The notes beneath the pieces were generated by a model. That model saw only the letters and a program-made list of their open reading frames with translations. It was not told the origin of the DNA and ran no database searches. From Brachionus plicatilis (Eukaryota; Rotifera; Eurotatoria; Ploima; Brachionidae): a stretch of 64,000 nucleotides of DNA. The position numbers were made by a program, and so were the translations under genes. The stretch lies in assembly GCA_010279815.1 (NCBI GenBank), contig QEOQ01000238.1:175986-239985 (forward strand), in the 5' to 3' direction. Numbering within the stretch: position 1 is the first letter of the stretch; the number at the start of each line of letters is the position of its first letter. Positions 1,930 through 48,596 of the stretch are shown here, in pieces.

Positions 1930-3369
1930 ATGGATACTGACATAGTGATTGCCAATCAGCCCATTGTGATCGACAATGTAATTTTAGAATAAATAAAATT
2001 TTTAAATTTAAAACAAAACAAAAATTTTTTTTTTTAAATAATTCAATTATTTTAAGGGCTCGGGAATGTTAAAAGCCGGCTTCGCCGGAGACCAGGTTCC
2101 CAAGATCAACTTTTCCAATTAGTAAGCACTCTTTTAAGCAAACAGTGGGCACTTTCAACTTTTATTTTGCAGCATTGGTCGTCCAAAGCACACCAGAGTG
2201 ATGACCGGTGGTCTTGAGGCAGACATTTTATTTGGCAAAATGGCTGAAGAATACCGCGGCCTGTTGAACATTGCGTATCCAATGGAGCACGGCATAGTCA
2301 ACAATTGGAATGATATGGAGAAAATTTGGCAACATTTGTACTCCAAGAGCCAGCTTAATTCGAATTCAGAGGAGCACCCTGTGCTGCTGACAGAGGCGCC
2401 GCTGAATCCGAGGCGAAACCGCGAAAAGGCAGCTGAGATATTCTTCGAGACTTTCAATGTGCCAGCCTTGTACATTTCCATGCAAGCAGTGCTCAGTTTG
2501 TACTCAACTGGGCGCACCACCGGAGTTGTTCTTGACTCCGGAGATGGAGTCACCCATTCTGTGCCCATATTCGAAGGCTTCGCGCTGCCCCACTCGGTCA
2601 TGAGAAATGACATTGCTGGTCGGGAGGTGACCAAGTATCTAAAGCTTTTGCTCAAAAAAGAAGGCTTTAACTTCAGCACTACGGCCGAGTTTGAAATTGT
2701 GAAGAGTATTAAGGAACGAGCTTGCTATTTGTCCTCGAATCCAGTCAAGGAGGATTCAAGTCAAAACGAAAAACAAGTGTTTGTCTTACCTGACGGATCT
2801 GTCATTGATGTAAAATTTTTTTTTTTGTTAAAATTTTATTCTTTAATTAAAAAATAAAATAGTTTAAAAATTTTTATTAATTTAAAAAAAAAAATTTTTT
2901 TTGTTTTAGCTTGGACCATGTAGGTATAGAGCAGCAGAGCTTTTGTTCCGACCGGACTTGGTGGGGGACGAGTCCGAAGGCATAGTGGAAATTTTGGCCA
3001 ACTCTATCCAGAGGTCGGACATGGACCTGAGAAAGACTATGTATCAGAACATTGTGTTGTCCGGAGGTTCCACGTTGTTCAAGGGCTTTGGCGACAGACT
3101 GCTCAATGACCTAAAGAGAATTGTGTTCAATTCATTCAATATGAAAGAGTGCAAGATCAAGATTGCCTCGCCAAAGGAAAGACTCTACTCTACATGGATT
3201 GGGTTGGTTTTATAAATTTAAAATAAAAAAATGGAAGTTTTCGAATTGAATTTTTTTTTTTGATAGGGGTTCGATATTGGCTTCTTTGGATACATTTAAA
3301 AAGTTGTGGATTTCGAAAAGAGAGTACGAGAGTGAAGGTGTAAAGGTGCTGCACAAAAAGACTTTTTGA
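1930..3369 (+). CDS. ACTR1: Actin-related protein 1 (centractin), dynactin subunit
   Basis: Arp1 forms the short actin-like filament of dynactin, the cofactor of cytoplasmic dynein. I read five exons with GT...AG borders: 1930-1977, 2057-2121, 2173-2809, 2910-3202 and 3267-3369, joining to 381 codons; vertebrate Arp1 has 376. The N terminus reads [23 protein letters not shown], the Arp1 form of the actin phosphate-1 loop. Next come [35 protein letters not shown], the phosphate-2 loop [24 protein letters not shown], and a C terminus ending HKKTF. The IANQP start and HKKTF end mark Arp1 rather than actin, Arp2 or Arp3. There is a small insertion (about 5 residues) after LKRIV. Introns are only 51-100 nt and A/T-rich. 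All exon joins keep frame, so the gene looks intact. The exon borders are inferred from conservation and splice consensus. Confidence 0.95.
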
Positions 3370-4212
3370 ACGCATTTAGTTTTTGTTACAGATTTTACTT
3401 AATTTTTTTTTGCGCGCGCATTTTATGGAATTGTTTTTAAACACTATTTATTCAGCTCTATGGACAGTGTAAAATTTTTTCAAATATAAAATAAAAGAAG
3501 ATAAAATCAAGTTTATTTAGTAAATTGGTCATTTTTTTTTAATAGTTTAATAAATATTAAATAAAATATTTAATTTAAAATGGTCCTTTAAAAATTTAGA
3601 TAGTTCGGGAGAGTGAAGTCGGGAGCAAATTTGTTCAAATAAAACATTAATAGTCAGAAAAAATGTCTTCTTAAAGTCTTTTCAAAGTCAATTCATTTGA
3701 TCTGACTTGAATTTAAAAAAAAAAATCTTAATTCGTTTTTAACGAAAATAAATTCTATATTTGGCAGAACAAGAATCTTTTCAATGTAATTTCTTATGGA
3801 TATAACGAAGTTCGGATATTACGAATCACTTTTTAACAAATATTAGTGAATTTCTCTTGGTTTAAAACGTATTTAGTAAAAAAAATATTTTTGGTTTCTT
3901 TGTTTTTGATTGATTTTAAAGAATAAGTACTAATTTATCTAATTCTAATATAATAAGAAATAACATTTAACTTAAATAGCTAAAATTTTTTATTAAAAAG
4001 ATTTTATTTTTTGCTAAATAGTTAAATAAGTCTTTTACATAAAAAATATAACAAATTAAATACATTTATTTTTTATTATACAAATAGTTTTTTTATATAA
4101 AGAAATTAATTTAAAAATAAATAGTTTAATTTTTTTCTAAATTGAATTTTTCGTAAGTTAAATAAAAATAATTCTCATTTAAAAAGATTTTTTTTATATT
4201 TATAATTTTACA
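3370..4212. other. AT-rich intergenic DNA with a pogo-like TIR fragment
   Basis: It holds the Arp1 3' flank and, near 3796-3840, a motif (gatataacgaagttcgg) that resembles the 3' terminal repeat of the pogo-like element at 5041-5118. Nothing else recognisable. Confidence 0.4.
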
Positions 4213-19982: not shown

Positions 19983-22900
19983 ATGGACAGCAAGGAGACC
20001 ATCGAGCAAAAGCTCGAGCAGATCGACAAAATCATAAGGATATGTCTGCAGTCGTCTGTGACCCAGCTCGGCAAGGACCAGAACAACAACCCGTGCTCGC
20101 CCGACTCCAACAATGTACCTTTTTGCCCCAATGGGAAAAAAATAAAAATTTTTCTCATCTCTTTTTTTTCTCTTTTTTTCCTCTAGACTGCAGTTTTTAA
20201 GCTTTTTGCCAAGCAACTCACGCTGCTCAAACAGCGCTCCAAAGACGGCCATGCCAATTTGTACAGCAAGTATCCCAACTTGAAAAAATGGCTTCAGCTG
20301 GTGAACGTGCCGGAGAGTTTGCTTAACGAGATGGACTTGTCGCGGGTCACTTTTCACGACCTGTTCTGCAAGGAGAGAGTGGATGAGGTGAGAGCGTGTC
20401 TTAGCGATTGTGGTCCCAGTCTGGATGACAAAGAGATAAGCAAGGTGTTCAACGGGTTCCAGTGTTTGCGTCAGCTGTCAAACCCGGACGTGGAGTCCGC
20501 GCAGAACATGGCCAATTCATCTACTAACAACTCCATATCACAGTCGGTCTCGTCGACGTCCTCGTCGAGCTCTTCGGTTGTCACAGGACAGCAGGCCATG
20601 CACGGCAAGCAGTCTGTGGCCGAGATAAACAGCTCGAATTCTGTGCGCGTCAAACAGCAGCGAAAGTCCGAGTCCGATGTCCAGTTCAACTCGGTGAACT
20701 GCTCCAATGGGCCCAAACAGCTCAAGCCGCTCACTAATAATCAATACAGTACATCAACAAACAATTTTTCCAATCTTTCCTCATCCTCAACAAGCTCAAG
20801 CAGTTCGAATAAAAAGAACAATTTCACTTTTTCGCCCACTCTTCCAGTCAAATCCAAAAGTAAGTGTTTTTTTTTTTTTTTTTTTTTTATTAATAAAATT
20901 ATTTATTAAATGGGAATTTGGAAAATTTGGAATTTTTTTTTTATTTTTGCTAAGACTGGTGATTTTCAGCTTAAATTTTTTTTTTAATTAAAATTAAAGT
21001 TAATTAAAAATATTGGAAAAAATACTGCAACAAACTTTTTTTACCTAAAAAAATTTTTATCATGGAAAAGGGGGTATTGTGAAAATCCTTTTTTGGTGAA
21101 TTAAAATTTGAGTTAATAAAATATACTTAAAAAAGGCTTCAAATTATTTTCGTAGGTAATTTTATTATTTTCGTAGCCAAAAAAATATAAATGTAGAAAA
21201 AAAAATATATCACATTTTTAATAGAAAGTAAATTAGTTGTTTGTATTTTTATTGATTTTAGGTGGACGGCCTCTTTTTTTTGGAGCCTCTTTTGAGTTTA
21301 GTCTTGTAATAGTTATTGACCAAGTCGGTTGAATGAGCAATCTATTGTTAGCATTGTTCTCTTGTTTTGATAACTGTGAAATAGGTTCCATTTGATTATC
21401 ATGTTGTTGTTCATCGACCTTTGAAATTTGATGTTCAAGATTGATACTTTGTAAAGCTGGGTTGGTTGGTCCAGTAGATTTTTTAGTCACTAATGCCATA
21501 TTTGCTTGTTTTCGTCTTCCTCTTTTTGAATTGCATTTTATGTTTAAATCAATAGATGGAAATTGACATAAGCCAAGATTGTAAGCCACACCAATGACAT
21601 GTTTATAAATATAATTTTTTTTCCAATCTGGACATGAACATTCGCTAAGTTGCCATTGATCATTATTAAATCTTACTTAACGCAACGTCATCTCTATGGT
21701 TGATAGGTCTTAAAATTGATGTCGAAGAGGATTCTGTATCACTCATTTTAAAAATTTACTTATCACTATTCAAACTCACTAAATATTCAACATTTATTTA
21801 GAAAAAATAACTTTTAAATTAGAATAAAACTCATCAATTTTCTCTAATTTACATCTGATACAAAATTAATTTTTTAGCTACTAAATAATTAAATCTATCT
21901 TTTTTTATTTAGCTACTTTTTTATTTTTAAATTTAAATTTAAATTTAATTAAATTTTTTTATTTTAAAATAAAATCATTTCTTTTTTTTTTTAAGTAAAT
22001 CAAATCAATAATAAATTTAAATCTTATTCATATTTTATGATTTGTCTAATAAAAGCATGAGAAAAATTAGGAAATATACGAATTGATAAGATTTAAATAG
22101 ATTATTGATTTGATTTACCTTAAACAAAAAGAAGAAAATAAAAATTTTATTTTAGACAAAAAAGGTGCAACAAAGAATGTTGCAGTATTTTTCCTAGTAT
22201 TTTTTATCTAATTTAATTTAAATAAATCAAAATATGAAGAATATTTGTTCAATTTGTATTTGAAATTCACAAGACATAATTATCTGAATTTAGTGACATT
22301 TCAGTAAAAAATCAAAAAATGAACACTGATTTTATAAAAGGAACATGTTAACTTTTGTTATAAAACAAATGCGGTTCTAATGAAATTCCGATCAAAAACA
22401 TAATTAAATTTCCATTTTTAAAAGAATTTCACAATTATTTAAAAAAATTTTAAATTTATTCAAATTTTAATTAATTACATGTCATTAATAATGAATTTTT
22501 ATTTTTCTAAAAAAAAGTGCTCAATTTTGAACAACATGTCACTAAAATAGAGTACTCTTTTTAAAGACATGTCAATAAATTTGGATACTTAAATAATAAT
22601 AAGCTACAGCAGGTCACCTGCGGAGCGAGAGTAGATGTGAAAAAAAAAAATTAAATTTTAGTCTTCATTTAATATGCAATTCAGTCAAGTTCATTCATAT
22701 ACTAAACTCGATTATTTATAACTTATGTTATTTCGGAAAATTTTAAGTAATTTTAACACACCTAATTAAAAAAAAGTAAATCAAATTAAATTAAAAAATT
22801 TAATTCAAATTTATTTAATTTATTTCTATGCGAAATTGATGTTCATGATCAAATATAAATTTCAAATCAAAATTTAAAAAAAAAAGATCATTTTTATAAA

Positions 22901-25900
22901 TTTTTTTATTGATAAATGACTAAACTTATAAATATAATTTGTTTAAACTTGAAGTATATTAAAAAATTCTAAGAATTTTTATGTGAAATAAAAAATAATT
23001 TTTAATCAATATTTTGACTTTTTGAAATTCAAAATTTAATTTTGTTTGGCTCTAATATGTTTTAATTTAAATTAAAATATAATTTAAAGCGTTTATTTGA
23101 GCCATACTTTGGATAACTCAATGTGGATTCTATCTTTCAAATAAAGATTTGGAAGAATCAATTAAAGATCAATTAGAATAAAAAATATTTGTTTTTTTTA
23201 AATTTAAGTGATTTAATGTTTAATAAAAAAAAGAAACAAAAAAAGTTTAGTTCATTTTTTTATTGAGATTTAAAATAGTTAAGTTTTGATCATGTGATCG
23301 TGGTCATGAAATTCAAGTTGCCCATTTCTATAATTAAATATTTTTTTAGCGTAAAATTAAATTATCAAATAATTTCGTGTTTCTAAAAAAAGCATATATT
23401 TTTATTTATTAAAGTAGACCGGAGCAAAAATTGAGAAACTTTTAGACAGGTCCTACAAAAACAATGAGAACCAAATATTCAAAATTTCCTGACCCTCACT
23501 GTTTTCAAAGCAAAAAAATTTAAAAAGTTTTGTCTTATGGTTTGGAATTTTCTGTACTTTTTTAGAATTAAATTTTATTTTTTTTGCACTGAGCTAATAC
23601 TCACACAGTTTAATAAAAAAATGGTAAAAATAGGAGAAAATTAAAATTAGATATATTGAAAACGAGAGTTAAATATTTTTAGATTTTTGATGCTCCTTCA
23701 GAATAAAAATATATAAATAAAAAATAAAATAAAATAAAAATAAAAAAAAGGATAAAAGTAAGGTAGCAATAAAATTAAAAAATTAAATTGTTTATTTTAT
23801 TTAAATTAATTGAGAACTAAATTTGACATCGAATTTAAATTAGGAAATTATATCAACTACTTTTCTGAAATCATTTTAATTAATGTTTTTGAAATCAATG
23901 ATTAAATTGAGTTGAGATTTCTTTTAAAAAATTTAAATTCTATTTGTTCCAAATTTTTTTTTTAAATTCGTTCCTAAAAACAAAATTATTTTTCTTATAG
24001 AAATAAATTATGACTATTATATTTGATTTCAATTTATTCTTTAAATCTAGTATAATTACATAATATCGAGTCTTTTATCTAATTAAAATTCAGCAGTTCT
24101 TTCATTGATATTTGATTCAATAATAATAAAACTTAAAAATTAGTCTGGGAAATAATTTTCAAATGTAAATAATCTTCTAATCAACTAGCAAATTTTGAAA
24201 ACAAATTTTTTATCGACATTTTCAATTACTATCCATTTCATATTTTCTATCAATTAAATCCTTAAGCTTTCAGCTTAACTAAAAAAATATCTTAAAAGGA
24301 AAATACTTATTTAAGTAATATTGTAAAGAAAAAACTTAATGAGTAAAAAAAAACTTTTTTCATTGTTTTTTAAAATATTCTTAATAAAATTTGAATGGTT
24401 TAATTATTTTATTTATATAGTTAGTTTTATCTCGCCTTGCTACACTCTTCTTCAATATGTTCTTCATTTCGTATGATGATTCTAATTTTTTTCACGAATT
24501 CGGTCAGATTTTACTTGAATTCTGACCATTTTGACATTTAAAGTCCCGCTAAGAGAACTGTTTTTTACGTAATTTTACATAATTACATAAAATTATGTAT
24601 AGATTAAAATTTCCGAGTAAAAATCGAATGTTGAGAATTTTTTAGTTTTTTTTTTAATTTCTCCTTAAATAAAAAAATCAATTAATGAAAAAAATAAAAT
24701 ATTAATAAATATCTATTAATTCAATTAATTCTTAACAATCGATTTTTACGGTGTTGTGAATTTCAAATACAAATTGAACAAAAATTCTTCATTTTTTGAT
24801 AAATTAAGATTAAAGTTAATTAAAAATATTGATGAAAATACTGCAACAGCACCTTTTTTTCCTAAAATAAAATTTTTTAGTGAATCGAATTGTTTTTTGT
24901 AGTAACGTAAATGTCCGATAAATATGACATGTCACTAAAACAGAGTAACCCTATTTTAGTGACATGTAATATTTGAGTGAACACTGATTTTTAAAATTGA
25001 AATATTCGCTTTTAGTGACATGCAACAAAAAGCGAATATGCATAATATTTTCATAAAAAATAGCAATATTTATGCATATTTGCTTATTGTTGCATGTCAC
25101 TAAAAGCGAATATTTCAATTTTAAAAAATCAGTGTTCACTGAAATATTACATGTCACTAAATTTGTTAGTGACATGTCATATTTATCGGACAATTACGTT
25201 AAATCAAATCAATAATCAATTTAAATCTTATTGATGCTGGTATTGTGACATTCAAATACAAATTTAACAAAAATTCTTCTTTTTTTTATTAATTAAAATT
25301 TAAGTGAAAAAAATGTACCTAAAAAAATACTGCAACAAAATGCAACATACTTTGTTGCACCTTTATTACTAAAAAAAAATCATTATTTTCTTTTATTTTA
25401 AGTAAATCAAAGCAATTTAAAATTTAAATCTTATTCATATTTTATGATTTGTCTAATAAAAGCATGAGAAAAATTATTTCAAGTAAAAAAGATGTAACAC
25501 AGTATGTACTTTTTTGTAGTATTTTTTTTAGTATATTTTATTTACTTTAATTTTAATTAATCAAAATAAGAACAACTTTTGAAGAATTTTTGTTCAATTT
25601 GAATTCAAAATTCACGGTTGCAATTTTTTCTTAAGTCGATTTTACCAAAATCTTAAATTTGGTAAAATTTAATTATTATTTTATAAATTTAAATGTCACT
25701 GTCAATTTATAAAATGTGTCATTTGTAAAATGACTTGGCAATTGATAAAACTCCACAGAAAATAAATTTTATATTCACATAAGACTGAAATGCTCTTTTT
25801 GAAAAGCTGAGTGTAGTAGTAGTAGTAAAAATAACTGCGACTCGAGAAAGACGAGGAAAACCGTAGGCTGTGGCAGTTCTTTGCAATCACACCAGATTCT

Positions 25901-28900
25901 GTACCATAAACCATTCATCAAGTCTTGCTTTAAAGGAATTTAATGAATTTGCTTCAACAACATTTTTTGGAAAACGGTTCCAGTCGTTTACAACCCTGTT
26001 TGTTATAAAGTTGAACCGTGATGGACAATTTTTAATAAGTTCTCTTGTAACCATCTTTGCATGACCCCTCAAAATATAATTATTTCTTTGAACGTACCTG
26101 ATTTCACTTACCAATTTAACAGTTTCTAGACTGTTTACAATTTAAAAAAACTGAATCAAATCGCCTCTTCTTCTTCTCGTATCCAAAGTGGTAAGTTTTA
26201 ATCTTTTCAATCTTTCTTCATACTCAAGATTCTTAAAGGCTGGAATCAACTTCGTAGCTCCACGTTGTACTATTTCTAATTCCTTCTTATCTTCTTTCAG
26301 GTATGGATTCCAAACACTAACTCCATATTCAATAAGAGGTCTTACCAATGAGGTATACAATAACTTAACTACATTGGCGTCCAAAAATTTAAAATTTTTC
26401 CAAATCATTCCCAAAATCTTATTCGCTCTGCCAGAAGAGTACCTAACATGTGCACCCCATTTTAGATCATTTTGAAAAAACACACCCAAATCCTTTTCCA
26501 ATTTTGTTTTATATAATGATTCTGTTCCATATTTATTAAAAATTGTGTAGTCAAACTGAGGATTTTTATTACCAATATGCATAACTTTACACTTTTCTTT
26601 GTTTAAATCAGTCGCCCATGTAATCGCCCAGCTTGAAACAGTATCTATATCGCGCTGTAAAGATAAGTTATCATTTAGATGGTTAACAGCTGCTAAAATT
26701 TTCATATCATCAGCATAGACTTTTGTTTCATTATTTAAAGATTCGGACAAATCGTTTATGTAAATAACAAAAAGAAGAGACCCAAGGACCGATCCTTGCG
26801 GAACACCACTAGTAACATCAAGCCATTCTGATTCAACGTTACCAAGAACAACTCTTTGCTTTCTTCCATCTAAAAAATTTTTCACCCAATCTAATATTTT
26901 TCCTTCGAATCCATAAGCTGATAACTTGTAGATTAACAGTCGATGTGAAACTTTGTGAAAGGCCTTGGAAAAGTCAGTGTATACGATGTCGATCTGATTG
27001 CCAGAGGCTAGTAGATTTGAGATTATATTCATTGTTTCTAGTAAATTTGTAGAGCACGACTTTTTTGGAACGAAACCGTGCTGAGCGTTAGATAAAAGAG
27101 CGTTCTTCAATAAGTGCATTAACATTAGTTCTTTAATTATGCTCTCCAGTATTTTATAGACAATACTGGTAAGTGAGTTTGTAAGTTTTGCTTAAAATGA
27201 AATGGGAAGATTTTTCAGTAAAAAAATTTTATAAATTAAATTTTCAATTAAGCGTTTTGTTTAATTTTTGTAAAATTTAAGTTTTATTATGCACAAAATT
27301 TTTGATAAATAAAAATAATTTATTAAGATTAAAGTTGATAAAATTTATTGAATAAAATACTGCAACAATTTTTTTTTCACCTTTTATTGCCAAAATAAAA
27401 TTTTTATTTTTGTTTTTTTTTAGTAAATAAAATCAATAATCAGCTTAAATCTTATTTAAATCTTACAATACCATTGATGCTTTAAATTTTGCCTATTTTT
27501 ACATGAGAAATATTATTTTGGCTAAAAAAAGTGCAATAAATTTACAAAAATTTAAAAAAGTAAAATTACATGAATTTACGTAAAAAAACAGTTATCATAG
27601 CAGTACTTTAAACAAAATATTTTGAAAAAAAATAATATAAAAATTTTAAAATTTATTTTCTTAAATAAAGAAGGCACTAAAGTGACAACTCCGCCGCCTT
27701 TTCGCAAAAACTCGACCGGCAACCCGATAAACCAAGTGAACTTGAACAATCCTCAATTGGCAGCTTTGGCCGCAGTATTGGCCAAGACAAATACTCAGAA
27801 CAAGAACCCATCAAGTGAGAGCACATCGAACATGCAGAGGAGCTCGTCCCACGAGTCCCACTTGCGCAACAAGATCCAAATAGTGCACCAAAATGATGCG
27901 GCGTCATCAGCACCGCAAGCAGAGAACAAAGCAGATGACAATTGCTTTCTGGCAACGGGGGACCGGAGACTATCAAACTCGGACAAGTGTGGCTCTGAGC
28001 TGAGCAGTCGCTGTCCGAGCGGACAAGCGTCGCCAAGTCTGCAAAGCCCGGGCCGATTTTCAAAAGCCTCCAATTCAATGACCAACTCAATTGAGGCAAA
28101 GTCTTCCCAAGTGAACCGCGAGCACCGGTAAGTACTGTGTTAAAACCCCTTTTTTTTATAAATGCATGGCTTGAGTTTTGAGTTAACCCTAGTTGGACGA
28201 ATGCATTTAAAGTGACCAACTGCAGTGTGTGCGGCAAAAAGCTTATTTTTGGAGTTAAATGCAAGAACTGCAAGTGAGTGAGCCTGACTAATTTTGTGAT
28301 CTAAATTTTAAATCGAGTTTTGCCCATTTTTAATTCAGCTTAATTAAGACATTTTATTAAAGATTTATAAAATATGTTCGCATTAGAAACATTAAAAAGT
28401 GTCTGGTCTGCCGCAAGCCAGTCTGGCACGGCCTCAAGTGCAAATACTGCAAGTAAAAAAGAAGAAGAAAATTCGATTTTAGAGAAAAAATTTATTTTTG
28501 TTTAGGATTTAATTTTAAAAAAATTATTTTAAAGGTTCCGGTGTCACAAAGACTGTGAGAAAAAGGTGGCACAATTTTGCAGCGTGAACAGCATGTCGTA
28601 TTTTACGAACGATTTGCCTGTGATCAGCGTTGCGGACAATACTGAGCAGCCAAAGTTTGTCCAGTACTCGAACACTTCGTCGGCGGCCTCTTCCACAACC
28701 GCCTCGCCAGCCCTGCATAATTTGAACCAGTCTCAGCTCAGCGAATCTTCCACTTTTAACTACAGTCCATCGAACAGCTTAACTTCAGCAGTGTTTGGCT
28801 TTGCCAACAAAATGGTCAATTCGAAAAATTCGACTCCCATCACAAATCACAAACCGGTCAAGTGTGTCAAAGATCCACACTTCATGGGTAAATAAATTTA

Positions 28901-31900
28901 CTTTACTTTTTGCTTTTTCTTTAATCCTTTTCACAGATACAGCGCTTTTGTAAAAGGTGCAGAATGGGCTAATTGTGTAATTTTACAAAAAAGAAAATGT
29001 TTCTTTTTCAAAATATTTAATTAATTTTTTTATGAAAAAATTTTTAAAAAAAATTCAGCATTCCTTACTTTTACTTACTTAATTTGGCAAAATTTTGTAA
29101 CCAAAATATAAATCATTGAACAATTTAGAAATTAAAAAAAAGTTAAATTCAAACAGTAATAAAAATACTTAAAATAAGAGTTGTACAAAAGTCACAAGTC
29201 AAGTGCAAGTCAGGGCTATGACTTGTTTCAAAAATTTTAAAAAAAAACAAGTCAAGATTTTTTTCTTATTTTAAGAATAGGATTAAAATATAAATAAAAA
29301 TTATAAGTATTGAATTTTTTTATTCAGGAAAAAATAAAAATATTTTATTTTAATTTTTTTTTCAATGTAAATATTGAAACATGATTTTTTAAACAATTCA
29401 CATAATTTTCATATTCTTTTTAAGTGAATTTATTAATAAAAAACAAAAAAAAATTGTTTTTAAAAAAATTTTAGAAATAAATTAAACAAGATAAAAAATA
29501 AAATTTTTATAAAAATTTAGACTTAATGAGATACAAATTGAAAAAAAGTTAAAACTCTTAACAAAGAAAAAAATAAAAAAAAAGAAAAAAAGTCTTAACT
29601 TGACTTGATTTCTTTTATATTTTTCAAAAGATTATTTATAAATTTATAATTTTTTGGTTAACAAAATGATTCAATTAGAAATGTAAACGTCAAAGAGATT
29701 TTAGAGAAAAAAAAATCTAAAATCAATTTTTACATAAACTATAATTTGTAAAAATAAAATCAGACAAAACATCAACTAAAGTTACTTTTGAACTTTTCCC
29801 TGTAAAAAAAAATTCAAGTTAAGTCGTGACTTGGACTTGTCTTGAGACTTGAGACTTGATGAACAACTCTGATTTATTTATTTGTCATCATATGTAGTTT
29901 TTTGTCAGTAATATTTATTTTTTTTTGTCAGTCCATTAATTGATGGCCTTAAAAATATATTTTTGTAAAAAAAAGTTTTATTTTTATGTTTATTTGTACC
30001 AAGCTAATGCTCCCTCAGAATAAAAATATAAAAAAAGATAAAAATAAATTTCTATAAGATAAAATTAAATAAACAAAAACAAAAGAAGGATACAAAAAAA
30101 AATAAAACTAAAAAAAAAAAAGGTAAAGTAAAAATAAGATAAAAGTAAAATAAATAAAAAAAAATAAAACACAATTAAAAAAGATAAATTGTAAGTAATG
30201 ACAGGTGCAAAAAGTTTAAGTATTGAACAGTTCAGAAAATAAAGAATAAATAGTAAAATGGCAATATATTTTTATTTTATTTATATATCTGTATCGGGCT
30301 AATTCTTCTTCAGAATAAAAATATATGAAAAAAAAAATAAAAGACCGGTCTTTCCAGGACATTTTTAAAGGACCGGTCTTTCCAGGACCTTTTTAAAGGA
30401 CCGGTCTTTCCAGGACCTTTTTAAAGGACCGGTCTTTTTTGGACCTTTTTAAAGGACCGGTCTTTTTTGGACCTTTTTAAAGGACCGGTCTTTTCTGGAC
30501 CTTTTTAAAGGACCGGTCTTTCCAGGACCTTTTTAAAGGACCGGTCTTTCCAGGACCATTTTAAAGGACCGGTCTTTCTAAACGCACTGTCTTAAAGGCC
30601 ATTTATTGGTCACAATATTGGTGACCCATAGATCACATAATGTTGGAGCCCCAATTTTCTTATATTTTTTGCTGTTTGTTGCTATGACAATTAAATTTTT
30701 TTTTTTGAAAGACTCGCGCTCTAGCTCATCGTGCAACAGTTCCGAGCCAAACTCGCCAAATTACTTCAAACAAATTCACAACCAGCAATTTAACCCTCAC
30801 AAACTGAATACATCGGACAAAAAGCCGTCCTTCTCGTCCATATCCAATGCTTCGATGGGATTTTTCAACACCAGCCAGGCGCCCAACCAACTTGTCTCAT
30901 CGGTCACCTCTACCACCACCCAGAACACACTGACAGCCTCAGACAACCCTCAGGACTCGCCCAAAACCGAATCGGAAAACGCCGCCGAAGACGAGGACGA
31001 AACCGTGACCGAAGACTCGAAACACTTCGCTCAAAACTCCGAGCTTCAACAGTTCAACATCCAGTACGAGGAGATCACGCAAAAGACCGAGATCGGCCGT
31101 GGCCGATTCGGCATTGTCTACAAAGCCTATTGGCACGGCGAAATCGCCAGCAAAGAAGTAACCTTCAACCAAAACATCAGCGAGGACTCGGAAGAACTGG
31201 TCCACTTCAAAGAAGAAGTGTCCAACCTGAGAAAGACGCGCCACTCAAATTTGATCTTGTTCATTGGCGCGTACATCAAGCCGCCCAAGTGCGCCATTGT
31301 AATGAGTCTGTGCCGCAGTCCCTCGCTGTACAAGTACCTGCACACCGAGTCTGTCTCGTCGGGCAACAAAGTCAACCTGGACTGGATCATAGACATTTGC
31401 ACACAGATAGCGCAGGCCATGGGCTACTTGCACAACAAGCAAATGATACACAAGGACCTCAGGTCCAAGAACGTGTTCATTGACGGAAACAAAGCGGTGA
31501 TCAGCGACTTTGGTCTGTACTCGATTAGGCGTCTGTGCAACAGGCTCAAGAGAGACGACCTGTTGCCCATAACAAAAGAGTGTTTGTACTATATGGCGCC
31601 GGAGCTAGTCAAAGTGATCGGCACTGGACGCATTGAGGCCGCATTTTCGCAGGCGTCCGATGTGTACGCGTTCGGCACCATTTGGTACGAGATGTTTTGT
31701 CATGAGTTTCCCTTCTCGTCCTACAGTGCCGACTCGGTATTGTATTTGGTCGGCAATGGCCTCAAGAATTTGTCGCCCAATATTCAATTGAGCAAAGAAT
31801 TTAAAGTAAGTTGAATGAACGGAAAAGAGATTTTTTTTTTCTTCTTTTTGAATTTTTTTTAGAGAAAAGAAAATTTGAGCATTTTTTTTGTCATTTAGAT

Positions 31901-34779
31901 TTTTTATTTATTTTTTGTCTGTGATCAGCAGAGACAACCAAAAAATGCATTTGCATTTTTTCGCATTTTTTTTTCCTAGGAACAATTTTTTTAAATTTTT
32001 AAGTTTTTGTTGCATTAGAAAATTAAAACATCAAAAATTCAACCACTATAATTTTTTTTGCATTTCAAATTATTTATTTAAATTATGTGATTTTTTTCTT
32101 TCTTAATTCAATTGAATTAAAATTTCAATCACATTAAAGCTTTTTCTTTATTAAATTTGAAATAGACTCATTTTGACTAAAATGTCAAAAATTACTCCTC
32201 AAAAAAGAATTTCTCAATTTAATAATAAAGAGTTATCCGTAAAAAAACAAAAACTTTACTGTGTTGCGTGTGACCAAGAATTAGATCACTTGCATAAATC
32301 TATTATTGAATCTCATCTTTTAACTCCAAAACATATTCAAAATTCGAAGAGTATTGCTTCACAAAAAGCTCTTGATTTTTCTGAAGAAAACAGTAGAGAT
32401 TTATTTTTAAAAGATCTAGTAATTGGTTTCGATTCGGCAAATGTACCCTTTCATAAAATAAACAAGAAATTTTTTCGGAGTATCTTTAATAAATATCTTA
32501 AAGTAAATTAAAAAAAAAAAATGTTTCGATATTTTAAAAAAATTAAAGCAAATTTCATTCTTAGCCTGAATATAAACTTCCGAGTGTGACTTGTTTACGT
32601 CGTTTTTTGCCTAATATTTACAAAGAAGAATTTAAAAAAATTGTGACTTTTTTTGCTGATTCTAAAGTTGCTTTGTTGAGCGATGAAACCTATGATTCAC
32701 TAAATCGATCTGTTTTTCAAATTATTTTGATTAAATTTTAATTTTTTTTAAGGATTTTTTATCTTATAAAACATTAAATTTTCATTAAAATGTAAAAATG
32801 CTGCGTAAAATTTTTAGGAATTGCCTCAATAAACTATTTTTGTTAAAAATTTTTATGCATTTTTTAGCATTTTTTTTTGCATTTCAACGCATTTTTATCA
32901 CATTTTTTGACCTAAAAAGGTCGCATTTATGCAGCATTTTTTCACCAAAAAAAATGCATTTTTGGTTGTCTCATCACTGATGAGACAGAGATTGTTCAGA
33001 TTTAAAAAAAATGGTATTGTGAATTTCAAAAACAAAATGAACAAAAATTCTTCATTTTTTAACAAATTAAAATTTAATTTAATAAAAAATATTAGAAAAA
33101 AATACTGCAATATAGTGCAACATACTTTGTTGCACCTTTTTTACCTAAAATAATTTTTCTCATGTAAAAAATGACAAAATAAACGAATCAATAAGATATA
33201 AATAGATTATTGGTTTGATTTTTTAAAAAATAAATAAAATAAAAATTTTATTTAAATAAATAAATATATTTAAGAAAAAAAAAATAAAAAAATAAAATTA
33301 CTATCAAATTGTACTTTTTATAAACTGATTAAAATGAAATCAATTTATCAAATTAATTTTTTATCTAATTCAACAGCACGTAATTATTTTCAATAAAAAT
33401 AAATTAAAATTAACAAAAACCAATTAATTTCAACTTATTAAGTTAATTTTTTTGTTTAAAATAGAATTTTTATTTTTTCAACAAAAAGTAATTATTTTCG
33501 CAGTACAGGTAATTAACAGCCTTTTACAATGGAGTTGGGTATTGAATATATCTTGATTCGAAACCTTCTTTGTATTCCTCCACCAGTCTGACAACTAATG
33601 GAATCGAATGACTCAGTCCTGTCCCAACATTTCTCTCACTCAACTTAAATATATCTGACTGCTGAATTCTGAATAGCTTGAAGTTTTTTAATATTATTTT
33701 CGGAAAATGAATTTAAGCAAGGAAAAGAAAAGTCTAAAATTGATCCGACTCAAGATTTATAATTCTAAAGTACCTAGCGATCTCAAACTTTAATATTTGT
33801 GTGCAAATTTTTAAAATATTCATTTTCTAAAGTACCTAGCAATCTCAATCTTTAATCACAAAAAAATCAATGAAAAGCTGAAAATATTTTCTTCCAAAAT
33901 CTTGTTTATGTTTATAAAGAGAATGAGTCCTCTCAAATTATATGATTAAAATAATCAATGGACTGGACAAAATTAACTGGCATGTACCCTTAGTGTTCAA
34001 GAACAAGCTCGAAAACATATTCCGTCCTTCCCCTAGACTGCATGAGTTTGTTATGGAGAAACAACTGGTGAAGAATTGTGAACAAAGATACAATTTCTTT
34101 AGCAATAGAGTAGTGAATGTATGGAACAAACTGGATAAAGATATTGTAAATTCTAATTCTATAAACGTTTTTAAAAACAAAATTGACAAAATTGATTTGA
34201 TTGAGCTATTATAATGAGATTAAACCCTCATTTCATGTGCCTAGCACATTATAGCTATTTATTTATTATTATTATTATTTATTATTATTAAATTTATCAA
34301 TTATTTTGTCTTTGTTAAGTTTGTAATTATCAAAATTTACGTGTTTACAAAATTTAAATTTAGTATTTTTATGGTTCTAAAAGGCAAAAATAAAATATCA
34401 ATAAGATCTTAGTTGATTTTTCTATCCAAAATAAAATCATTTGCTGCATTAATCCTCTTTTATATATTTTGAAAATGATAAAATTGAATTAAATTAACAA
34501 AAAAAAATTCTTAAATATTTTTTATTCTATTCGGATTTTAAGTTATCAAGCTAACTCACTATTTTTTAATTGTATTAATAGGATAATTAAATAACAAGTC
34601 TCTTTTTAAATAAAAGTTAATTAAAATTTTATTTTTAGATAATATTGTTGAAATGTTGGTCCAAGGATCCGTCGAATAGGCCTGATTTTTCGCGATTACT
34701 CGAAACTTTTCGCGGAATACCCAAAAAATCAAAGCTTTTTCGAAGCCCATCTCATCCAGTGCACATTAATATGCGCTAG
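19983..34779 (+). CDS. KSR: Kinase suppressor of Ras (KSR) scaffold
   Basis: Scaffold pseudokinase of Ras-RAF-MEK-ERK signalling. Exons: 19983-20114, 20187-20859, 27671-28127, 28193-28273, 28387-28452 (alternative, see findings), 28535-28887, 30712-31805, 34639-34779. Phases match at each join; without the alternative exon the protein is 976 aa (vertebrate KSR is about 900-950). Domains: N-terminal CA1 helical region (about 1-135, LFAKQLTLLKQ, YPNLKKWLQLV); Ser/Thr-rich linker with TPPPFRKNS; C1 zinc finger about 419-465 (NCSVCGKKLIFGVKCKNCK, FRCHKDCEKKVAQFC); kinase domain from about 684: GRGRFG loop, Lys713 in ASKEV (mammalian KSR has Arg), HKDLRSKN (812-819), DFG (831), APEL, ending LLKCWSKDPSNRPDF in the last exon and stop at 34777-34779, then aataaataaa. 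HKD in place of HRD and the KSR-type C1 separate it from RAF. The first coding Met (19983) is the only good ATG in frame; an upstream exon cannot be excluded. Introns of 6.8, 1.8 and 2.8 kb are transposon-filled. Confidence 0.92.
20965..21140. repeat. Partial Mutator-type MITE copy in KSR intron
   Basis: Matches the 350-bp family (attaaagttaattaaaaata, atactgcaaca, ggtattgtgaaa at 21075) in a rearranged, truncated form. No TSD found. Confidence 0.5.
21233..21700 (-). pseudogene. MULE transposase C-terminal remnant in KSR intron
   Basis: On the minus strand, WQLSECSCPDWKKNYIYKHV begins upstream of the ATG of the 118-aa open frame and continues IGVAYNLGLCQFPSIDL, then NSKRGRRKQANMALV and the end KKRGRPPKINKN. 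This is a SWIM finger plus basic tail of a Mutator-like transposase. The third SWIM cysteine (expected NYICKH) is Tyr, so the finger is broken. No catalytic domain remains. Confidence 0.75.
21960..22275. mobile_element. Truncated Mutator-type MITE in KSR intron
   Basis: Central and right parts of the 350-bp MITE: aagtaaatcaaatcaataat, gtgcaacaaagaatgttgca, and the right end gaaattcacaagac at about 22275. The left arm is missing. Confidence 0.6.
22830..23323 (-). mobile_element. 494-bp hAT-like MITE, TSD ATTTCTAT
   Basis: Perfect 8-bp TSD ATTTCTAT at 22822-22829 and 23324-23331. Ends: GCGAAATTGATGTTCATGAT on the left and, complemented, GGGCAACTTGAATTTCATGA on the right. The right part of its interior matches the element at 35986-36290 in inverted orientation (cacattgagttgtcc / ggataactcaatgtg). 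No coding content. It lies in the 6.8-kb KSR intron. Confidence 0.8.
24750..25237. mobile_element. Mutator-type MITE, split by a TA MITE
   Basis: Starts GGTGTTGTGAATTTCAAATA at 24750 and runs to a point (25237) where another copy begins. Joining 24904 to 25202 across the inserted MITE restores the family sequence gtaaatcaaatcaataat. Right arm not present. Confidence 0.7.
24905..25199 (-). mobile_element. 295-bp TA-flanked palindromic MITE, copy A
   Basis: Flanked by TA (24903-24904, 25200-25201). Terminal repeats ACGTAA(A/T)TGTCCGATAAA continue as tatgacatgtcactaa; the whole element is nearly palindromic with several gacatgtcactaa boxes. An 80-codon open frame inside is a by-product of the palindrome. 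TA target and size suggest Tc1/mariner. Copy B at 48270-48564 is the same sequence in opposite orientation. Confidence 0.9.
25238..25615. mobile_element. Mutator-type MITE, full-length but diverged
   Basis: Left end GGTATTGTGACATTCAAATA at 25238, centre atgcaacatactttgttgca, right end tttgaattcaaaattcac near 25613. The terminal bases have diverged and no TSD is visible. Confidence 0.65.
25812..27192 (-). mobile_element. 5'-truncated CR1/jockey-like LINE, one nonsense codon
   Basis: Minus strand. ORF2 reverse transcriptase from about 27192 (LTSIVYKILESIIKEL) through FSKAFHKVSHRLLIYKLSAY, SGVPQGSVLGSLLFVIYIND, the catalytic box VYADDMKI, and LYTSLVRPLIEYGVSVWNPY to PSRFNFITNRVVNDWN, stop at about 25887. 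The two open frames 27125-26142 and 26114-25887 are in the same frame and are divided by a single TAA where the context QFF-stop-IVNSLETV suggests Lys. The 3' UTR ends in a (tac)n-type microsatellite at about 25815-25830, as in CR1-like LINEs. Endonuclease and 5' part are absent. It lies antisense in a KSR intron. Confidence 0.88.
27310..27545. repeat. Mutator-type MITE, centre only
   Basis: Family sequence taagattaaagttgataaa, actgcaaca, gtaaataaaatcaataatca; both ends are lost. Confidence 0.5.
29178..29871. mobile_element. 'caagtc' hAT element, about 694 bp, in KSR intron
   Basis: Left end AGAGTTGTACAAAAGTCACA (first C changed), right end complemented CAGAGTTGTTCATCAAGTCT. CAAGTC/GACTTG boxes lie at both sides, and the interior tcaatgtaaatattgaaaca matches 17405-17425. 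The 8-bp flanks are not identical, so the copy is older. Confidence 0.7.
30341..30590. repeat. 28-bp tandem repeat with GACCGGTC palindrome, about 9 units
   Basis: Unit ggaccggtctttccaggacc followed by tttttaaa. About nine units, with ccagg/ttttgg variants in the middle ones. Each unit carries the palindromes GACCGGTC and, at the joint, ttttaaa. It lies 120 bp upstream of the kinase exon of KSR. Units are very alike, so the array is young or homogenised. Confidence 0.92.
31919..32979 (+). mobile_element. hAT element with N-terminal transposase fragment in KSR intron
   Basis: The ends are similar inverted repeats: CTGTGAT...GAGACAACCAAAA on the left and CAGTGATGAGACAACCAAAA on the right (complemented), with GCATTTTT motifs inside. 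The open frame 32173-32511 encodes a zinc-finger-like start (CVACDQELDHLHKSIIESHL, TPKHIQ) and DLVIGFDSANVPFHKI, then after a frameshift PEYKLPSVTCLRRFLP and FFADSKVALLSDETYDSLNR (32565-32720). This order is that of CGG-binding-protein-like hAT transposases (BED-like finger, then the first catalytic Asp region, SDET). The rest of the catalytic domain is gone. No clear TSD. Confidence 0.75.
33013..33260. mobile_element. Mutator-type MITE, left half, in KSR intron
   Basis: Starts GGTATTGTGAATTTCAAAAA at 33013, with atactgcaa and gtgcaacatactttgttgca in the middle. The right arm is missing. Confidence 0.65.
33525..33695 (-). pseudogene. LINE reverse transcriptase C-terminal fragment
   Basis: Minus strand reads NIKKLQAIQNSAVRYI, then in another frame KLSERNVGTGLSHSIPLVVR, typical of the post-thumb region of LINE RTs (KLQ.IQN...R.I). 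Short and broken. Confidence 0.45.
33942..34295 (+). mobile_element. LINE 3' end with (TTA)n tail in KSR intron
   Basis: ORF end KNCEQRYNFFSNRVVNVWN, followed by NSNSINVFKNKIDK and a stop at 34212-34214. This matches the last part of the LINE at 25812-27192 (FNFITNRVVNDWN). A short 3' UTR with the hairpin-forming gattaaaccctca is followed by a TTATTATTA tail at 34262-34290. Strongly 5'-truncated. Confidence 0.75.
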
Positions 34780-46345: not shown

Positions 46346-48269
46346 TAGTTTAATCTAAAAATTCTAATAAAAAATTCAAATTTGACAAATTTGTTAAAAA
46401 TCACATGATTTAAAGAGATTTTTTAAGAAACATAAAGTAATAAATTGGAATAACTAAAAGAAAAATTAAAGAAAAATAAAGCAATAAATTTTGGCCTGGT
46501 ACAACTGAACCAAGTCCTTTCTTCATACTTTATCCCATGAGATTCAAGTAGTGTTGTAAATCAAATTGGCGATTTGAACAAATTATTCGATTTATTTCGA
46601 TTTAAATTTAACATTAAATTTGGATTCAAATTTAAACATAAATAAAATTTGAATTCAAATTTAAACTCAAAAAATATTTAAATTCTAAGATTAATTTAAA
46701 TAATTCTAAATTCTATTTAATTGTGTTTTAATTAAAATTACTTAAACAATTTGACTAATTTAAATTTTCGGATATAACTAAAACCTACTAAAATTTTATG
46801 CTGATATCCCATTCCATAGCATGCTCTTTTTTCAAATGACCAAGCATATTGCTTGAGTAATTTGTATTACTATATTCAACAGTGAAATATCAGCATTTTT
46901 ATTTACTAAAATTTTCTAACTTTAATTGAATTATTGTGGTAAGAGATCTTTTAATGTATTGCTTTTTGTTTATCGATCGAGAAGTAAAAGGTGCTTGTAA
47001 AAAATCTTGAGTTTGACTCATTTTTAAGAATATAAATTTGTTTTTAATAAAACTATTACTAAAACACGGACCACGGAATGTTTTAGTAATAACCAGGTCG
47101 GTTATTACTAAAACACGGACCTCCAGTTTTTAAATAAAACACGGACCCATACTTATCTCCCCCATTAAGACTATGCCATTTATCCCCCACCATTTTTCTA
47201 ATACATAATTTTACCAGCTTTCACGCAAGACAAAAATCTAAGCTCTAGCACATTTGGTTTGCCCTTCATTTAAGCTTGAAATCAAATTGTTTTAATTAAT
47301 TAAATTTATTTTTTAAATATTTCATTTAAATAATTTATTTTTTAAGACTCAGTTTATTTAACTTTTTTTTTCATTTTTTAAATTTTTTCCATTATATAAT
47401 TAATGGATTAAAAATTTTTTTCTTTTTTGCATGTCACTAAAATACTTCTTACATTTGATTTCACTTGAGATTTTTTACAAAATTGATTGCAAAAAAGATT
47501 GATAATTAAGTTTTATTATTTTGTGTTAATAAACATAGAAATATAGAGGAAGGAAATTAATAAATATTCGGTCGATAAGAAAAATCGCTTATTGTTTTAG
47601 CTATTTTATTTAAAAACGATTTATTTTTTTTCAACAAATAAAAATAATTACCGAAAACTCGGTCCCACTCCTCTTGGAACAATGTCAAAATTTGGGTTAA
47701 TTCTTTATAAACCCAAATAATACCTTCGAAGCCATGCAATAAAATTATTTCATTTTTTTTTAGAATAAACCTTGAAACCTGACTTTAAACTAAGAGTAAG
47801 CGCAAAAACTTGCTTTTATTCTTAGAATAATTTCGAATTTTTTCTGGAATAAACTTGTAAAATTGTGGAGTCAAATTAAAAATTAAAAATTAACTTTTAT
47901 TTTAAATTTTGTATTTATTTAGAGTAAAAGTTAAATGAAAAATCAATTGACACCGAATTCTGATTTTTTGAGAATTATCTGATTGAAATAATTATCGGTC
48001 CATATTAACGAACCCTTTTTGATCAAAAATAAAACTTTTGCATTAGCATGATTTAATAATTTCTATTAAATTATTGTTAATTTAAAATTTTAAAATATAG
48101 AAAAATTTTTTATTGTTGAGATTTTTATAATATTTTTTGGGCTCGTTAGAATATTATATTAAACTTTACTCTTCTGATTTATTGAAACACTTTAGGTTTG
48201 AATAAAAAACATAAAAAAGAGAAAAAATTTAAAAATAGTGTTTTTCTATTTTATTTACATTGATAAATA

Positions 48270-48564
48270 ACGTAATTGTCCGATAAATATGACATGTCAC
48301 TAACAAATTTAGTGACATGTAATATTTCAGTGAACACTGATTTTTTAAAATTGAAATATTCGCTTTTAGTGACATGCAACAATAAGCAAATATGCATAAA
48401 TATTGCTATTTTTTATGAAAATATTATGCATATTCGCTTTTTGTTGCATGTCACTAAAAGCGAATATTTCAATTTTAAAAATCAGTGTTCACTCAAATAT
48501 TACATGTCACTAAAATAGGGTTACTCTGTTTTAGTGACATGTCATATTTATCGGACATTTACGT
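48270..48564 (+). mobile_element. 295-bp TA-flanked palindromic MITE, copy B
   Basis: Flanked by TA (48268-48269 and 48565-48566). It is the reverse complement of copy A (24905-25199); lengths are equal and I see no difference in the parts I compared, including the whole 80-codon frame. It sits inside the long-TIR element. Confidence 0.92.
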
Positions 48565-48596
48565 TACTTTTTTAATTTTTAAAATTATAGAAAATA

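Follow-up and report, generated by a model that had tools for sequence, protein, structure and literature searches.

A Tandem Pair of C1 Exons, Probably Mutually Exclusive, in the Single KSR Gene of the Rotifer Brachionus plicatilis

Can a single gene supply two versions of the scaffold protein KSR (kinase suppressor of Ras) that differ in one face of their C1 zinc finger? This question is raised by a stretch of 64,000 nucleotides from the rotifer Brachionus plicatilis (contig QEOQ01000238.1, positions 175,986 to 239,985; hereafter the window), in which the KSR gene carries the first half of its C1 domain twice. We conclude, with a probability of about 0.77, that the segments 28193-28273 (exon A) and 28363-28452 (exon B) are a tandem-duplicated, functional and mutually exclusive exon pair within a single KSR gene, giving scaffolds with different membrane-facing loops. 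This conclusion is built on the exons themselves, their phases and coding character, a deposited protein model that uses exon B alone (P0121), the predicted fold of form B, and an alternation of the same segment in molluscs. Either exon would supply four out of eight C1 zinc ligands together with a strand and two loops, with the first His coming from the constant exon upstream and the last His/Cys/Cys from the constant exon downstream. The choice of exon would then produce two KSR proteins that share the zinc core and differ in loop 1, nearly neutral in form A and strongly basic in form B.

Borders and coding character of the two half-exons

Exon A (plus strand, 81 nucleotides, WTNAFKVTNCSVCGKKLIFGVKCKNCK) is enclosed by the splice borders ccctag/TTGG...CAA/gtgagt, and the second exon with a CxxC-x9-CxxC motif ends at position 28452 (CAA/gtaaaa). 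Both are entered and left in phase 2, have lengths divisible by three, and stand in frame with the preceding exon end at 28127 and the following exon start at 28535; in these respects the splice sites and frames confirmed what an initial annotation of the locus had proposed, including the ability of either half-exon to join the next exon. The two half-exons are therefore adjacent, homologous, of the same phase and divisible by three in length, which is the structural signature of a mutually exclusive pair. All four combinations (first exon, second exon, both, neither) keep the reading frame open.

The initial annotation had drawn the second exon at 28387-28452 (plus strand, 66 nucleotides). 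All AG dinucleotides between 28280 and the codon for the first Cys of the second exon were considered as alternative acceptors. The one at 28361-28362 (ttttattaaag/ATTTATAAAA...), 24 nucleotides upstream of the in-frame acceptor used initially, gives a phase 2 exon of 90 nucleotides on the plus strand (28363-28452) that reads HR/FIKYVRIRNIKKCLVCRKPVWHGLKCKYCK. With this start, the first zinc-binding His is spaced from the first Cys as H-x13-C, compared with x10 in exon A and H-x5-C in the 66-nucleotide version, so that the distance to the first His, originally described as shorter in the second exon, becomes the longer of the two. The start at 28363 yields a C1 half that is complete (H-x13-C), where the other start leaves a truncated one (H-x5-C), and it had been proposed from the DNA before the model P0121 came to light. 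P0121 is a deposited B. plicatilis fragment of 401 amino acids from a 6.3-kb contig that agrees with the KSR of the window at 296 of 297 shared residues. It reads EHR/FIKYVRIRNIKKCLVCRKPVWHGLKCKYCK/FRCHKDC, which corresponds to the junctions 28127^28363 and 28452^28535 and to skipping of the first exon, and it is identical over the whole second exon.

A spacing survey of 154 proteins (P0001-P0154, P0121 included) bears on the same point. The C1 core could be parsed in 147 of them, and the His-Cys spacing lies between 10 and 14 in 143; the remaining values are 8, 20, 23, and 24, the last two belonging to the double forms P0126 and P0138 discussed below, and a spacing of 13 occurs once. The 28363 form fits the C1 pattern H-x(10-14)-C-x2-C-x9-C-x2-C-x4-H-x2-C-x7-C, whereas the spacing of 5 in the 66-nucleotide form misses it and lies below every value parsed (8-24). 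Use of the second exon through the acceptor at 28386, which would produce a C1-like finger without its first strand, is unlikely. Its acceptor (cattag) is a good one, and the 24-nucleotide extension that it leaves out has an intron-like G+C content at third codon positions (GC3; 1/7); against it stand the spacing data, the first strand of the predicted fold (residues 225-229), which falls inside the extension, and the use of 28363 by P0121. The second exon most likely starts at 28363, not at 28387.

Is the second exon used at all, or is it a decaying duplicate? In a window with about 26% GC, its 66-nucleotide core has 48.5% GC, compared with 15-34% in the three neighboring short introns; only 31 of 11,273 overlapping 66-nucleotide windows from the gene's three long introns are as GC-rich. 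Its GC3 value of 16/21 resembles that of the remaining coding sequence (629/976). Of 53 core nucleotides, 24 are not shared by the two exons, yet the second exon contains neither a stop codon nor a frameshift and preserves the Gly and, as had been claimed for it, all four cysteines. In a simple simulation of neutral decay of this core (20,000 runs each), absence of stops together with retention of the four cysteines survived in 11.7, 0.96, 0.075, and 0% of the runs when 20, 40, 60, and 80% of the sites were hit. We estimate that the 60% value is the nearest if all divergence is assigned to the second exon, and that a value between those for 20 and 40% applies if half of it is. A duplicate that is rarely or never used would agree with the donor GTAAAA and with acceptors containing 9 pyrimidines in 20 positions, neither of which is strong, and with the A-type exon found in the Brachionus calyciflorus model P0001 and likewise in the rotifer model P0002. 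It is at odds with the preserved coding features, with a neutral survival of 0.075-0.96% at 60-40% of sites hit (though 11.7% at 20%), with the identity of P0121 over the entire exon, and with the prediction that the second form folds as a C1 domain. We rate decay as very improbable.

The pair belongs to one gene. When the genome (102.9 Mb, 173 contigs) was searched for further KSR copies, both the DNA of positions 28060-28760 and the C1 peptide matched nowhere else, and the best other kinase match covered part of the domain, at 43%. Both a further KSR gene and a duplication in the assembly were accordingly rejected as the source of the second half-exon.

Alternation and possible joint inclusion in spiralian KSR proteins

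The comparison with KSR of related species that the initial annotation had called for revealed two versions (A and B) of the C1 first half in mollusc proteins, at the same borders, starting immediately behind HR (or HK) and running to CK. Between Bulinus (A) and Biomphalaria (B), the segment is identical at 11 of 25 positions, while the flanks are identical over 14 residues before and 16 after it. The same picture is seen with Aplysia (A) and Bradybaena (B; 11/27 in the segment, 16/16 after it), with the limpets Lottia (A) and Patella (B; 11/27 and 14/16), and with the mytilid-like contigs P0128 (A) and P0130 (B), which are 90% identical overall and match at 13 of 27 positions in the segment. 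Across 16 pairs that we chose for comparison, segment identity was 37-48% in nine A-B pairs, 93-100% in four A-A pairs, and 68-100% in three B-B pairs.

We assembled 28 spiralian KSR proteins, judged by name or similarity and drawn partly from the best 120 of 484 matches, a number that is a lower bound. Nine carry version A only (two rotifers among them), sixteen version B only, one the rotifer second exon only, and two both. Five unnamed entries, molluscs by similarity, are cDNA-sized (3140-4065 nucleotides for 842-942 residues); contigs of this length are too short for a KSR gene with introns, and we therefore take them as cDNA. Four of them contain B, one contains A, and none contains both. 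The protein database was clustered at 90% identity, so that two isoforms of one species usually stand behind one representative; because such clustering hides isoforms, both forms in one named mollusc are seen solely in two double models, those of Plakobranchus (P0126) and Tegillarca (P0138). These two proteins may be annotation artifacts.

The initial annotation had left it open whether the two exons are used alternatively or together. Splicing of both into one message, as a cassette, would give the CxxC-x9-CxxC motif twice, with an additional half-finger ahead of the C1 domain. The frame permits it; P0126 and P0138, both from genome contigs, hold the two versions in the order A then B, as in the rotifer DNA; and the summed Pfam C1 score is highest for the joint form (40.5 bits over two stretches, compared with 35.9 for the first exon, 32.1 for the 90-nucleotide second exon and 30.9 for its 66-nucleotide version). 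However, exactly one version is present in 26 of the 28 spiralian proteins, including all five cDNA-sized contigs, and the AlphaFold2 model of P0126 displays a disturbed C1 domain, with a predicted local distance difference test score (pLDDT) of about 41 over residues 461-480. Gene predictors also tend to string adjacent exons together, which we count against joint inclusion, and we regard it as very improbable. Of the two modes of use, it is the alternative one that gained support, from the skipping of the first exon in P0121 and from the alternation in molluscs.

How might exclusivity be enforced in the rotifer? Pairing between intron RNAs was considered and rejected as a candidate: duplex energies as low as those for introns 1-2, 2-3, and 1-3 were obtained in 179, 136, and 152 of 500 shuffles, respectively. 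Steric exclusion was likewise discarded, since the intron between the two exons (89 nucleotides) is longer than other introns of the same gene, which measure 65, 72, and 82 nucleotides. We also noted two 12-nucleotide arms (28310-28321 and 28468-28479; 11/12 or 92% complementary) that flank the second C1 exon and could loop it out, although the two introns pair no better than shuffled ones.

A number of observations speak against a mutually exclusive, functional pair. Among intron length, frame and intron pairing, no mechanism that enforces exclusivity was found: the inter-exon intron is not shorter than the gene's other short introns (65-82 nucleotides), double inclusion is allowed by the reading frames, and intron pairing does not rise above the shuffled controls (136/500 as low for introns 2-3). 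The extension that distinguishes the 90-nucleotide from the 66-nucleotide exon has the intron-like GC3 value given above and adds only 1.2 bits to the Pfam C1 score (from 30.9 to 32.1 bits). Exon B is not recognized as a mollusc B segment; profile hidden Markov models (HMMs) of the two versions give it 14.0 bits for A and 6.6 bits for B (14.3 and 10.5 bits for the 66-nucleotide form). Finally, P0121 is a gene model and not a transcript, and it was the one protein obtained when partial relatives of 248-788 amino acids were sought. This model may stem from the annotation of the HYR1 genome, for which the passages available name GeneMark, MAKER2, Augustus, B. plicatilis expressed sequence tags and congeneric transcriptomes (PMC6207753). 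We nevertheless favor mutually exclusive use, and splicing of the pair in B. plicatilis would be regulated as well as exclusive.

A further C1 variant was noticed outside the Spiralia. In the aphid proteins P0008, P0010, P0011, P0017, and P0019 and in that of a phylloxera (P0024), the KSR C1 first half reads FSNLLPM[LF]GYC[ED]QCSVRVFVGVKCKICK, strongly unlike that of other Hemiptera such as Bemisia. The two members of this set that were scored fit the B profile slightly better than the A profile (17.7 vs. 15.5 bits for P0008; 22.9 vs. 19.3 bits for P0024).

Fold of the swapped segment and age of the pair

AlphaFold2 predicts the 28363 form to fold as a C1 domain, with pLDDT values of 89-95 over residues 221-270, and its best Foldseek and VIA matches are the cysteine-rich domain (CRD) of RAF1 and other C1 domains. 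The nearest solved fold is that of the RAF1 CRD (6xi7_B; 0.9 Å over 49 residues); for the first-exon form, the best sequence match in the PDB is 1kbe, the C1 domain of KSR1. As read from the structural alignment ranges, the swapped KSR segment corresponds to about residues 141-169 of RAF1 and spans both membrane loops and both CxxC pairs. According to the passages available of the respective studies, the RAF1 CRD inserts two loops into the membrane, residues 143-151 and 157-164 (PMC7895934), acyl-chain contacts are made by L147-L149 in loop 1 and by Q156, F158, and L160 in loop 2 (PMC10902389), and the cysteine-rich CA3/C1 region of KSR has been linked to membrane association (PMC9441002). As the initial annotation expected, alternative use would probably alter a membrane-recruitment module. 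Loop 1 carries a charge of +1 in form A (WTNAFKVTN) and of +5 in form B (FIKYVRIRNIKK). The second form would hence prefer anionic membranes, and the two forms may differ in lipid or partner preference and in the localization of KSR.

How old is the pair? The first exon of the rotifer is clearly of the A type (39.0 bits with the A profile vs. 16.2 bits with B). In a phylogenetic tree, the B sequences of molluscs, brachiopods, and annelids form one group (ultrafast bootstrap 89), and the rotifer second exon sits on a long branch beside this group and vertebrate KSR, with low support (61). In topology tests, placing exon B with the B group (P = 0.33 in the approximately unbiased, AU, test) and placing it inside the rotifer A sequences (AU, 0.157) were both compatible with the data. 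A recent duplication limited to this species, with exon B as sister of its own exon A alone, was weakly disfavored, by the AU test only (0.03; Kishino-Hasegawa, 0.067; Shimodaira-Hasegawa, 0.109). This leaves two histories: a pair that was already present in the ancestor of Spiralia, with later divergence of the rotifer copy, or two separate duplications of the same exon.

In the second case, the rotifer pair would be a duplication of its own, independent of the mollusc A and B versions and still mutually exclusive, as theirs would be, and the shared borders would merely reflect a shared exon structure. We give this an even chance. It accords with the low scores of exon B against mollusc B (6.6-10.5 bits), slightly exceeded by those against A (14.0-14.3 bits), and with its tolerated position inside the rotifer A group; against it stand the same borders and the same A-B order in molluscs, a fit within the B clade that is at least as good, and the rejection, by the AU test alone, of a recent origin as sister of exon A. 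In the first case, mutually exclusive KSR C1 exons would predate the divergence of rotifers, molluscs, brachiopods, and annelids, as a switch that swaps the whole membrane-contact face and keeps the zinc core. Tentatively, and at somewhat less than even odds, such a switch may have been kept for more than 500 million years as the spiralian route to two KSR proteins from one gene, vertebrates using two genes for this.

The surrounding gene and the significance of a C1 switch

The KSR gene lies on the plus strand (19983-34779), and our model counts the two C1 half-exons and six constant exons, eight in all; it was built with the 66-nucleotide version of the second. Exon 1 (19983-20114), whose start ATG is our choice, aligns to B. 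calyciflorus P0001, as does exon 2 (20187-20859), which contains the CA1 region. Exon 3 (27674-28127) ends in ...EHR in phase 2 and holds the C1 domain's first zinc-binding His. Downstream of the pair follow the exon with the final part of the C1 domain (FRCHKDCEKKVAQFC) and the CA4 region (28535-28887), the exon that encodes CA4 and the larger part of the kinase domain (30712-31805), and the last exon with the end of the kinase domain and the stop codon (34639-34779), which aligns to the C-terminus of P0001.

P0001, the KSR of B. calyciflorus, is the nearest protein, at 72% overall in the alignment, and the named proteins among the best 120 of 484 relatives are mostly deposited as KSR, the others being hypothetical or unnamed. 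The protein has a RAF-like kinase domain (PF07714, 169 bits) and a C1 domain (PF00130, 29.4 bits; cut-off 26.5) ahead of a serine/threonine-rich region. The five Pfam families found in it at E ≤ 0.1 do not include a RAS-binding domain, which RAF possesses. SAM_KSR1, the family for the N-terminal coiled-coil and sterile alpha motif region (CA1), had no match in the window protein and a sub-threshold one in P0001 (17.5 vs. 22.5 bits), to which the region aligns. With KSR1 and KSR2 and with the KSR proteins of rotifers, molluscs, and arthropods, it shares the domain order, the atypical C1 domain of the KSR kind and the kinase domain; the rotifer gene differs by its duplicated C1 first half.

The introns of the gene contain other elements. 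A foldback element, palindromic and about 298 bp long, is present in a KSR intron (24903-25200) and again at 48269-48568; at ≥98% identity, the genome contains at least 19 nearly full-length copies of it, including these two, in addition to diverged or partial ones, and it is a young family resembling miniature inverted-repeat transposable elements. The same KSR intron holds an open frame of 349 amino acids on the minus strand (26142-27191), by eye the reverse transcriptase of a non-long terminal repeat element. A GC-rich tandem repeat of 28 bp (TAAAGGACCGGTCTTTCCAGGACCTTTT; 30338-30578; 8.6 copies, 95% match) lies in the AT-rich intron that precedes the kinase exon.

Other genes, too, exchange a patch of their protein by means of tandem duplicated exons. 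The SNAP25 pair consists of the mutually exclusive exons 5a and 5b, and the U2AF1 pair covers part of a zinc finger. In their tandem duplication, SNAP25a/b and U2AF1 exon 3/Ab resemble the pair in rotifer KSR. The initial annotation knew of no such arrangement in KSR. This stands for the literature, in that the passages found in open-licence papers, to which the search was limited, do not mention alternative or mutually exclusive C1 exons in KSR, and it no longer stands for the proteins, since molluscs display the same alternation at the same borders. KSR3 was considered as a source of a C1 variant and set aside, the passages available containing no mention of alternative C1 exons (PMC10322840). 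Read as mutually exclusive exons, the rotifer pair is a new instance of an established type of splicing switch, at a site for which none is described in the papers found.

KSR determines where and when Raf-MEK-ERK signaling is assembled. A switch that swaps the two loops that enter the bilayer in RAF1 would allow one gene to target this scaffold to two types of membrane or partner, and the rotifer would offer a natural pair of near-identical scaffolds for probing the ligands of the KSR C1 domain. Should spiralians in general possess the pair, many KSR gene models from these animals would display one of two forms only.
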